Source of the DNA: a virus
Length of the DNA: 36,598 nt
Strand: one strand, 5' to 3'
Virus record (IMG/VR): IMGVR_UViG_3300017991_000234
Location: 1-36,598 of that record
The position numbers and the translations under genes were made by a program. Positions 10,360-29,396 of this stretch are shown here, piece by piece. Under the pieces are notes generated by a model, which ran no database searches, had not been told where the DNA came from, and was given only the letters and a program-made list of their open reading frames with translations. The number at the start of each line of letters is the position of its first letter. Position 1 is the first letter of the stretch.

Positions 10360-10407
10360 GTAACATTATTTACAATTAATTACACTATTTAAAATAATTA
10401 ATGTTAC
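10360..10407 (-). repeat. 9-bp inverted repeat between two - strand genes
   Basis: GTAACATTA (10360-10368) is perfectly repeated in inverse as TAATGTTAC (10399-10407), separated by 30 bp of almost pure A/T. It begins in the stop codon of the alphaCTD gene and ends about 28 bp before the membrane-protein start. There is no clear T-run for a terminator. It could be an operator half-site pair or an RNA structure controlling the downstream genes. Confidence 0.5.
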
Positions 10408-10826
10408 TATTCTTTTAGCAAAAAACCAAGTGATGCTAATTTATCTTTTATTTCATTTATTGATCTGATTCCCATATTTTTAATAGATCTAAGTTCATTT
10501 TCAGTTGTTTCTGTTAGACTTTTAAGATATTTAATACCAAACGCTTTTAAACAATTAGTAGTTCTTGAAGAAAGATTTAGCTCATCAATGGAAATTGTAC
10601 AATCTTCTATATTTTTAGGTTCATGTTTATGATCTTCTAATTCAGTATGTGACTCAATCCATTCATCAAACAAATCTTCTCTAATATAAATTTTTTTTCC
10701 AATTTTTCTAACGCATTTATAAAGGCCATTTTTTCTTCTTTTAGTTAAAAGAGATCTTATTTGTCCTAAACTAAATGGATATTTTTCATTATTAACAATA
10801 TCTTTTACATCTACATATTTTTTCAT
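10407..10826 (-). CDS. HTH protein fused to an RNA polymerase alpha C-terminal domain
   Basis: 139 residues. Residues 1-60 look like an excisionase/MerR-type winged helix (SLGQIRSLLTKRRKNGLYK, then KIGKKIYIREDLFDEWI). Residues 62-78 are a charged linker. Residues 79-139 are an alphaCTD: IDELNLSSRTTNCLKAFGI and LRSIKNMGIRSINEIKDKL. The Escherichia coli alphaCTD residues that touch UP-element DNA map with one constant offset: R265 to R88, N268 to N91, G296 to G119, K298 to R121, S299 to S122, E302 to E125. So the DNA-contact surface is kept. Likely a transcription regulator that mimics or supplements host alpha at phage promoters. Eight bases lie between it and the upstream HNH gene. Confidence 0.82.
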   Translation of the reverse strand: MKKYVDVKDIVNNEKYPFSLGQIRSLLTKRRKNGLYKCVRKIGKKIYIREDLFDEWIESHTELEDHKHEPKNIEDCTISIDELNLSSRTTNCLKAFGIKYLKSLTETTENELRSIKNMGIRSINEIKDKLASLGFLLKE

Positions 10827-10833
10827 GTTTTAC

Positions 10834-11070
10834 CTAATTAAAATTAAAAGTTAACTGATAAGGATTTGTATAAAAATAATGTCTAAATTTAGGAATATTT
10901 GCAATTCTATGATGTATTATAGCGTGACAAGAGGAGCATACGACTTCAAAGTTGCTAAATTGATTATTACTTCTATCTTGATCTATATGATGGACTAACA
11001 AACCATTTTGAGATCCACATCTTTCACATTTATGATGACATTGTCTATATATTTTTTGATTTTTATTCAT
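10834..11070 (-). CDS. Small HNH endonuclease-like protein
   Basis: 78 residues. C15-x2-C18, then LLVHHIDQDRSNNQFSNFEV and C45-x2-C48-H form the zinc-bound HNH/beta-beta-alpha metal core (HH at about 27-28, N36). The C-terminal 25 residues are aromatic. It overlaps the end of the serine recombinase gene by eight bases, so the two are co-translated. Such short HNH proteins act as homing nucleases, packaging nucleases or nickases. Which of these applies cannot be told. It shows no close similarity to the HNH protein at 256-726. Confidence 0.8.
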   Translation of the reverse strand: MNKNQKIYRQCHHKCERCGSQNGLLVHHIDQDRSNNQFSNFEVVCSSCHAIIHHRIANIPKFRHYFYTNPYQLTFNFN

Positions 11071-11629
11071 TTTCCTTTCTCTTTAGGTAATTATATATAG
11101 GTGTTCTAGATTTTATGTTTATAAGTCGTGATATAGCCACTATCGACATTCCCCTTGATAGATAGTCGTCTATAGCTCGTTTTTGCTCAGAATTCAAAAT
11201 AAATGGTCTTCCTAGCGATTTACCGTTTTTCTTCAATATAGTTAGCGCATCTTTAGTCCTTTCTGAGATTAAATCACGCTCAAACTCGGCAAATGATGAA
11301 ATCATGTGAAATATCATCTTACCAACAGCAGTTTGAGTATCAATCTGTTCGCTTAAAGAAACAAAACTTATTTCACGCTCCTTAAATTCTTCCATTAGTT
11401 CTTTTAAATGTTTTATCGATCTTCCAAGCCTATCTAATTTACAGACAACCAACGTATCGCCTTTTGTTAAAAACTTCAATAATTTAGCAAGTTTAGGTCT
11501 AACTTTTACACGAGTTGATATTTGTTCCTTATAAATATTACGTTCATCAATTCCATATTTAAGAAGAGCGTCTACTTGTTGATCTAACTTTTGTTCATCA
11601 GTTGAGACTCTTGCATATCCTATTATCAC
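11063..11629 (-). CDS. Serine recombinase, resolvase/invertase family
   Basis: 188 residues from a GTG start; the protein begins MIIGYARVSTDEQ. Ser9 is the predicted nucleophile next to Arg7. KLDRLGRS (64-71) and FAEFERDLISERT (113-125) are the other active-site arginine boxes of the small serine recombinases (Hin/Gin/Tn3-resolvase class). GRPFILNSEQKRAI and IVAISRLINIKSRTPIYNYL make the C-terminal helix-turn-helix. Length matches the family (180-200). It may resolve genome multimers or invert or exchange fibre segments. It is first in the - strand operon. No credible crossover pair was found near it. Confidence 0.9.
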   Translation of the reverse strand: MIIGYARVSTDEQKLDQQVDALLKYGIDERNIYKEQISTRVKVRPKLAKLLKFLTKGDTLVVCKLDRLGRSIKHLKELMEEFKEREISFVSLSEQIDTQTAVGKMIFHMISSFAEFERDLISERTKDALTILKKNGKSLGRPFILNSEQKRAIDDYLSRGMSIVAISRLINIKSRTPIYNYLKRKENE

Positions 11630-11874
11630 TGTTTTTTAACCTATTTATTGTAAATTAAAAGCATTTTATTAAAAACACCCTTTAAAAGCAAATTCTTTCC
11701 TTAATTAAAATAATTTATAGATATATCTGTTTTCAATGTCTTACAACGTCCGTTTAAAATCAGGGTGGGGTTAGGTCTTAATTTTATTAAAATTTTTTTT
11801 CGTATTTTATAAAAAAAGATTTTATGTTAAGTTCTTTTAAATTTTTTTTAAAACTTTACAAAGGAGATATTTTT
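11630..11874. promoter_or_regulatory. Divergent intergenic region, 245 bp
   Basis: Very A/T-rich except for a GGGTGGGG island at 11762-11769. It must hold the - strand promoter for the recombinase operon and the + strand promoter for the secreted miniprotein, but no clear -35/-10 pair could be fixed. A 10-bp palindrome (AGATATATCT, 11719-11728) is the only symmetric site noted and might be a recombinase or repressor site. No further gene seen. Confidence 0.45.
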
Positions 11875-12198
11875 ATGAGTAGTTTAACGCCTGTAGGGAA
11901 CCCCAATAATAATGTTGGTTTACAGAATTTAAATAATTTTGCACATAATTGGAGTCCTACTCTTAAAAGCATAGCTAAAAGAGCTATTATTGTTAGTATA
12001 CCTATTATTGCTACAGCAGTAGCTATTAATAATATTCCTACAGCTCAAGCAGCTGTCGCTGGAAATGATCAGTTGGTTGACTACGGAACTGCTACTTATG
12101 CATCTTGTGTAGCTGGTTGTATGGGAATGCCTATAGGTCCTTTTAGAGCAGCTTGTTTATTCGCTTGCTTACCTTTCCTAGCCCCTCATCTTCCTTAA
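11875..12198 (+). CDS. Predicted secreted miniprotein with twin CX3C motif
   Basis: 107 residues from ATG 11875, chosen because AAGGAG precedes it; the longer in-frame start at 11824 has no such site. Residues 1-30 are polar, residues 31-56 are basic then hydrophobic (KRAIIVSIPIIATAVAINNI), and an AQA signal-peptidase-like site ends at residue 59. The mature part would be about 48 residues with C78-x3-C82 and C94-x3-C98, 11 residues apart, the pattern of disulfide-linked helical hairpins. It ends hydrophobic, Pro-rich. No named family is recognised. It is a free-standing cargo gene in its own + strand unit between two - strand blocks. Export and effects on the host or on co-infecting phages are possible but unproven. 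Confidence 0.72.
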   Translation: MSSLTPVGNPNNNVGLQNLNNFAHNWSPTLKSIAKRAIIVSIPIIATAVAINNIPTAQAAVAGNDQLVDYGTATYASCVAGCMGMPIGPFRAACLFACLPFLAPHLP

Positions 12199-28577: not shown

Positions 28578-29396
28578 ATGGTTAAAGATGAATTAGAACT
28601 CTTAAATGATACAAGGAAAGAAAAAAACAAGAGTATTCGTGCTTACGAGGAAGTTCTTTTTAATGTTAAGTTATCAACAGTTATAGATCAATGTTTTGGT
28701 GATTGGAGTAGCTTATCATATAATACTGAAACTACACAGAATTATAAAAGATATATTAAAGAGCTTAATGATAACGGAATTTTATTTTTAGATAAAAATG
28801 TAAATGACACAGAGAATAAACCAATAATTATTACTCAAAAACTGTTAAATTGCAATAAACTATCTAATATGCAAAAAAAAATTAGAATGCATGCTCTGAT
28901 TCATGTATTTAGGCATATAGAAAAAGAGTCTCTAGGTAAATTTAAACCGTTAAAAATGCCTTTAGAATTATCTAAAATTGGTCCAATTAAAGACTCAAAT
29001 AGAAAAGCCGCTACATATGATGAAGTTATTAAAATTATTAATGCGTCACGTTCATTGTCATTAAGAGATAGTTTAGTTTTTGAGTTAATATACTATACTC
29101 AGAGACCACTACTTGAAGTTCTAAAGTTGAAGGTTGAACAAATTAATTTTGAAGATAAAATTATATTAAAAACTATTGTCGACGAAGGTATTATTGAGAG
29201 ATTAAAAAATTACTTTGAATCTACTATGCTTTTAAGAGGAAATTCTTCTAATTTTTTCATTTCGAATAATGGAAAACTTCTATGTAGAACAATAGTTCAA
29301 AAAACATTAACAAAGGCTAATAAAGCGACTCAATCGCCATTTACAATTACAACAAAAATGATACAAAGGTCGCAGCAAAGTAAAATATTTACATAA
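28578..29396 (+). CDS. Tyrosine recombinase, pGP7/pGP8-like, cut short by a frameshift
   Basis: 272 residues in frame, AGGA eight bases upstream. Residues about 30-130 are a core-binding domain (WSSLSYNTETTQNYKRYIKE, then RMHALIHVFRHIEKESLGKF). The catalytic domain starts near 145, with box I arginine R176 in YYTQRPLLEVLKLKVEQINF. NFFISNNGKLLCRTIVQKTL leads to ITTKMIQRSQ where the box II HxxR should be, then the frame ends. The layout resembles, from memory, chlamydial plasmid integrases (about 305-330 residues). Those last about 50 residues exist in the +1 frame (see next entry). As it stands it lacks the tyrosine and is probably inactive. Confidence 0.72.
   Translation: MVKDELELLNDTRKEKNKSIRAYEEVLFNVKLSTVIDQCFGDWSSLSYNTETTQNYKRYIKELNDNGILFLDKNVNDTENKPIIITQKLLNCNKLSNMQKKIRMHALIHVFRHIEKESLGKFKPLKMPLELSKIGPIKDSNRKAATYDEVIKIINASRSLSLRDSLVFELIYYTQRPLLEVLKLKVEQINFEDKIILKTIVDEGIIERLKNYFESTMLLRGNSSNFFISNNGKLLCRTIVQKTLTKANKATQSPFTITTKMIQRSQQSKIFT

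Follow-up and report, generated by a model that had tools for sequence, protein, structure and literature searches.

The protein encoded on the minus strand at positions 10407–10826 of the window (by which is meant throughout the whole stretch of DNA analysed, a 36,598-base viral contig from IMG/VR) joins an N-terminal half that modelling supports as a winged helix (wHTH) of the excisionase/AlpA type to a C-terminal domain that is, by both profile and fold, a true C-terminal domain of the RNA polymerase alpha subunit (alphaCTD). What is new here is the presence of an alphaCTD on a putative phage regulator of excisionase/AlpA type; the excisionase/AlpA/Cox class of regulator is itself already known. 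The interpretation that we favour, giving it about an even chance of being right, is that this is an AlpA/Cox-like phage regulator whose wHTH would fix the promoters to be acted upon and whose tethered alphaCTD would help to recruit the host polymerase to them.

A sequence-only reading had placed a phage HTH-alphaCTD fusion at these positions without stating the strand. The fusion stands, and it lies on the minus strand, where translation yields 139 residues, the plus strand having no open reading frame there and being interrupted by stops throughout; the gene is also conserved in five other phage contigs. Its parts are the wHTH (residues 1–60, positions 10647–10826), a flexible linker (residues 61–79, positions 10590–10646) and the alphaCTD, which when delimited by structure comprises residues 73–139 (positions 10410–10610), so that it begins inside the linker as delimited here. 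Summed over 15 pairs from the six phages, differences at codon positions 1, 2 and 3 number 204, 113 and 421 for the wHTH, and 336, 241 and 424 for the alphaCTD; given the excess at third positions in each, both domains appear to be under selection at the protein level. No counterpart of the N-terminal dimerisation and assembly domain of RpoA is found in the fusion protein, residues 1–60 being the wHTH, while NCBIfam rpoA models match only its C-terminal part and do so below their cut-offs; the gene is thus a conserved one, and not that of a full polymerase subunit.

Assignment of the C-terminal half to the alphaCTD family, which had been proposed from inspection, is borne out by a profile search and by structure prediction alike. 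Using hmmscan, PF03118 (RNA_pol_A_CTD) matches residues 70–131 with E=2.6e-20 and 72.4 bits, the curated cut-off being 23.8 bits, and when the whole 36.6-kb record was searched with the profile the fusion reading frame was its single match (E=4.5e-22). All matches in the PDB having E<0.1 are RNA polymerase alpha subunits. In an AlphaFold2 model of the fusion protein (calculated from the alignment of five phage homologues; mean pLDDT 80), residues 73–139 superpose on the E. coli alphaCTD with Z 13.8 and an rmsd of 1.1 Å over 65 aligned residues, at 43% identity. Comparison with the published E. coli sequence, the numbering of which is used here, shows that R265, N268, C269, N294, G296, S299 and E302 are all kept in the window and that K298 has become Arg, in agreement with the earlier count of five out of six DNA-contact residues retained (R265, N268, G296, S299 and E302) with Arg in place of K298. 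Among the six phage copies R265, G296, S299 and E302 are invariant, position 298 is always Lys or Arg, and five of them retain N268; the seven-residue DNA-contact set holds four of the ten invariant columns (hypergeometric P=0.009, a figure that serves as a guide only, the six copies being related). As for the patch that contacts sigma, position 259 is acidic in 5/6 copies and position 261 in 4/6, the gaps being Asn in place of E261 in the window, His at 259 in the contig L008 and Gly at 261 in L009. The 287 and 273 determinants, which are activator-contact positions, are poorly conserved across the six. Judged from these aligned residues, the DNA-contact surface is the best-kept part of the phage alphaCTDs and the sigma-contact patch is only partly kept.

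For the N-terminal half, the earlier view of a separate winged-helix unit holds, since a linker of low predicted confidence sets it apart, but the generic label of HTH protein that went with it is better replaced by one specifying the excisionase/AlpA type. PF12728 (HTH_17) matches residues 32–60 at 18.9 bits, under its cut-off of 27, and this weak match recurs in all five members tested. When the domain was modelled alone (pLDDT 85), the best matches among solved structures were the GIsul2 excisionase (Z 6.6), BldC (6.3) and Tn916 Xis (6.0), followed by Xis of phage Pukovnik (6.0), the MerR-type NmlR (5.9), RdfS (5.7) and a DNA-binding protein of phage P2 (4lhf; 5.6), all of these lying under Z 8 and having Foldseek E values above 0.001, so that they give support at the level of family only. 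Together with the Chlamydiota homologues described below, these matches support a separate winged-helix domain of excisionase/AlpA type. The linker falls below pLDDT 50 at residues 62–75 of the full-length model and ranges in length from 9 to 37 residues across the six phages; being both disordered and variable, it fits what would be expected of a tether.

Full-length homologues of the fusion are present in five more phage contigs (L002, L007, L008, L009 and L011), with 51–55% identity to the window protein over the whole length in the four of these for which it was measured. The wHTH is the most conserved part (51–63% identical to that of the window), the corresponding range for the alphaCTD being 42–53%. 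Among annotated phages and plasmids no full-length relative covering 80% of the query was found. In all five further contigs the fusion gene occupies the same genomic slot, the cassette to which it belongs sitting between structural genes, and this cassette is missing from two related records that have those flanking genes (G255, a 36-kb contig, and a phage-like contig of a Chlamydiae MAG); it is accordingly an accessory element.

Within the window the cassette runs, on the minus strand, from a serine recombinase of the resolvase/invertase kind (11063–11629; PF00239, E=2.8e-43; phrog_125 DNA invertase, E=5.4e-62), through a small HNH protein of 78 aa (10834–11070; homologues in L002, L007 and L009), to the fusion gene, the three being tightly packed: the HNH gene overlaps that of the recombinase by 8 bp and is separated from the fusion gene by a gap of 7 bp, and probably belongs to the same operon. 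The same gene order is seen in L002 and also in L007 and L009, both of which have additional small genes. In L008 a tyrosine integrase occupies the position of the serine recombinase; L011 does not extend far enough to include genes upstream of the fusion gene, and in every phage contig that does include upstream DNA a recombinase precedes it. That the N-terminal half appears to be of excisionase/AlpA type and is encoded beside a site-specific recombinase was overlooked in the sequence-only reading, and it ties the fusion protein to the excisionase/AlpA/Cox group of dual recombination and transcription factors.

Upstream of the cassette lies an intergenic region (11630–11823) carrying two TTGNTTTTAAANGG repeats on the minus strand, at 11763 and 11691 and thus 72 bp apart. 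Such repeats also occur upstream of the serine recombinase in L002 (4953–5198, spacing 70 bp) and L007 (4502–4668, spacing 68 bp), and one copy in L007 is an inverted repeat with 12-bp arms on either side of a TG core (12-2-12), resembling a serine recombinase crossover site. The repeats are probably to be regarded as candidate recombinase sites, and on account of this 12-2-12 layout they were set aside as a possible operator for the wHTH after being weighed as such, leaving no site assignable as that operator. Across the window as a whole the motif occurs no more often than chance would predict (10 observed, 11.9 expected), a promoter scan of the cassette gave no more matches than did shuffled sequences, and a search for a tRNA attachment site found no tRNA genes. 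Divergent from the recombinase in both the window (11824–12198) and L002 (4629–4952) is a small conserved protein without a Pfam match, which ends in a hydrophobic stretch containing Cys (GCMGMPIGPFRA...). Elsewhere in the window a second recombinase candidate, of the tyrosine type, is found at 28578–29396 (PF00589, E=8.9e-5, below the cut-off).

When the alignment of fusion proteins was searched against 234 Chlamydiota genomes, stand-alone wHTH proteins proved to be numerous (E down to 8e-28): they are mostly 45–58% identical to window residues 3–62, are about 66–87 aa in length and have no alphaCTD. No wHTH-alphaCTD fusion was among the matches listed for these genomes, nor was one found in host genome contigs in a profile search using a two-member alignment. 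The second PF03118 matches in Chlamydiota genomes, five of which were read, are frames of another kind, of 365–686 aa; part of the phylum has a protein some 400 aa long in which an alphaCTD-like domain is weakly matched (L086, L087, L091, L092 and L093), the match in L091 covering residues 134–189 with E=2.5e-9. The chlamydial wHTH, used alone as a query, matched nothing in the collections of phages and plasmids. In 19 of the 20 best-scoring stand-alone loci (L133–L152, which are not a random sample) a tyrosine integrase lies 0.6–2.6 kb upstream on the same strand, and downstream are found a DUF927 gene (L147), an AAA/primase-like gene (L146) or, with one small open reading frame intervening, a DUF3987 gene (L135). 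By eye, one of these islands has a Fic-like gene and one a gene resembling type I restriction-modification. In phage-inducible islands an AlpA protein encoded downstream of the integrase acts as master regulator, and some AlpA proteins are excisionases (PMC11773190); the layout of the Chlamydiota wHTH islands resembles that of such phage satellites or phage-inducible islands.

These loci, together with the phage-like contig of the Chlamydiae MAG, the terminase of which is 68% identical to that of the window, suggest that the hosts of the phages are Chlamydiota, this being the one phylum searched. A contig with a 74%-identical terminase has been placed in a Bathyarchaeota MAG, probably through a binning error, and the existence of such a relative means that the Chlamydiae MAG is no proof of host; similarity of terminase and portal to those of isolated phages gave no information on this point.

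As to where the alphaCTD came from, a tree of 63 columns, and therefore of low resolution, places the six phage domains in one clade (95/89) outside chlamydial RpoA (99/96), which is consistent with one old capture in these phages; recent capture from a chlamydial rpoA was rejected as a simple account because of this separate clade. Other phage proteins with an alphaCTD were recovered by scanning IMG/VR. One of them, of 304 aa on a 70-kb contig (L105:2314-3228, IMGVR_UViG_3300037454_000194), has sigma-70 region 4 (E=2e-16) followed by an alphaCTD (4.9e-22), which amounts to two promoter-recognition modules of the polymerase in one chain. In another (L106:1739-2605) the alphaCTD is joined to DUF3310, a third (L108:2926-3600) has two matched stretches, and in others no partner was recognised (L097:2944-3393, L122:1719-2192, L126:1740-2183, and also L107, L124 and L125). 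Proteins with an alphaCTD-like C-terminus are also encoded by the cultured phages Goe8, Mazun (gp26) and Mithril (gp57); many of the alphaCTD matches in INPHARED have the appearance of host rpoA contamination, as seen in MT836419. These other phage alphaCTDs fall in more than one position in the tree, and their scatter suggests that phages have captured the domain more than once. Whether host alphaCTDs have repeatedly been taken up and fused to DNA-binding or sigma-region-4 domains, so as to make portable polymerase-recruiting activators carrying their own polymerase tail, is a broader idea that we advance tentatively and with some doubt. In a search of the open literature, no description of an alphaCTD fusion in a phage came to light.

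AlpA, P4 Vis and P2 Cox control transcription, and some of them also excision; P2 Cox and P4 Vis are precedents for a wHTH protein that both regulates transcription and directs excision. By the mechanism that we favour, the winged helix, with the fold and family support described above, would bind a specific site in the phage DNA; the flexible linker would tether the alphaCTD to it; the alphaCTD may then grip the AT-rich minor groove near a promoter through its preserved 265 determinant, and would probably touch sigma region 4 as well, the patch for this being incomplete in the window, L008 and L009. Host RNA polymerase would thereby be kept at the phage promoters that serve the recombinase cassette and the genes around it, so that the protein would act in the manner of AlpA, P4 Vis and P2 Cox but with a polymerase domain of its own, rather than only by contacting that of the host. 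Redirection of host polymerase to phage promoters, which had been one of two outcomes envisaged in the sequence-only reading, is thus a plausible and leading interpretation of the domain content. It is favoured by the identity of the alphaCTD and the invariance of most of its DNA-contact residues, by a linker of the kind a tether would need, by the wHTH being the most conserved part, by its excisionase-type matches, by the integrase-linked homologues and by the linkage of the phage genes to recombinases; it is weakened by the incomplete sigma patch, by the lack of an assignable operator, by the accessory nature of the gene and by the wHTH matches lying under Z 8.

The main rival, which we consider rather unlikely, is that polymerase is uninvolved, the alphaCTD being only a second, non-specific minor-groove binder within a recombination directionality or architectural factor. 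Such a role would sit well with a DNA-contact surface that is better kept than the protein-contact patches, with a wHTH resembling Xis, with stand-alone homologues linked to integrases, and with the proximity of a recombinase to the fusion gene wherever a contig includes upstream DNA. However, stand-alone wHTH proteins manage without an alphaCTD, and the fusion is retained whether the recombinase is of the serine type, as in four phages, or a tyrosine integrase, as in L008; its persistence beside either type favours a regulator over a dedicated partner of one recombinase. It is also conceivable, though quite improbable, that the protein is a repressor, its two domains jointly blocking a phage promoter and so silencing the cassette. 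Blocking of this simple sort would not call for a complete alphaCTD, but excisionase-type wHTH proteins often repress, the fusion gene and the recombinase gene apparently share an operon, and Euo of chlamydiae, an excisionase-like wHTH protein (PMC4989314), is reported to repress late genes (PMC10653925). Least probable of all, in our estimation, is a decoy that depresses host transcription by sequestering host activators or AT-rich UP elements: an alphaCTD that is complete and has its DNA surface intact could in principle compete, but for this purpose a site-specific wHTH would be superfluous, and conservation of the 287 and 273 determinants is poor. The other outcome originally envisaged, competition with host alpha, found no specific support.

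Well-studied activators such as lambda CII and phi29 p4 recruit RNA polymerase through contact with its alphaCTD or its sigma factor. If the favoured mechanism is true, a phage activator bringing an alphaCTD of its own represents a different solution from touching that of the host, and the recurrence of the domain among phage proteins unrelated to one another suggests that the strategy is a general one; the fusion protein would also provide one of few openings for studying transcription in the tailed phages of Chlamydiota, about which, to our knowledge, very little is known.

Comparison with known systems brings out what is shared and what is not. With RNA polymerase alpha the fusion protein has in common the profile, the fold and the residues of the 265 determinant, but it lacks the alpha N-terminal domain and has a wHTH of probable excisionase type instead. 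With AlpA, Xis, Cox and Vis it shares a place downstream of a recombinase or integrase, stand-alone homologues in satellite-like islands and, probably, the wHTH fold; the known members of that group have a wHTH only, and none is known to us to carry an alphaCTD. The stand-alone Chlamydiota proteins (for example L034, L035 and L147) are direct homologues of its N-terminal half, but differ in having no alphaCTD and in their linkage to a tyrosine integrase and to DUF927, DUF3987 or primase-like genes. A protein of Bacillus phage Goe8 (QDP42789, annotated as ‘RNA polymerase subunit alpha’) likewise ends in an alphaCTD (E=4.4e-22), whereas its N-terminal half has no confident Pfam match, and neither a wHTH nor a sigma domain was found in it. 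Mycobacterium phage Mithril gp57 and Microbacterium phage Mazun gp26 share the alphaCTD-like C-terminus but show no detected N-terminal similarity to the fusion protein; by eye, equivalents of K298, S299 and E302 are missing from Mithril gp57, the N-terminal half of which may be winged-helix-like. Finally, chlamydial Euo is an excisionase-like wHTH regulator of Chlamydiota (PMC4989314), the likeness to the fusion protein lying in the type of wHTH; it differs in being a chromosomal developmental regulator.
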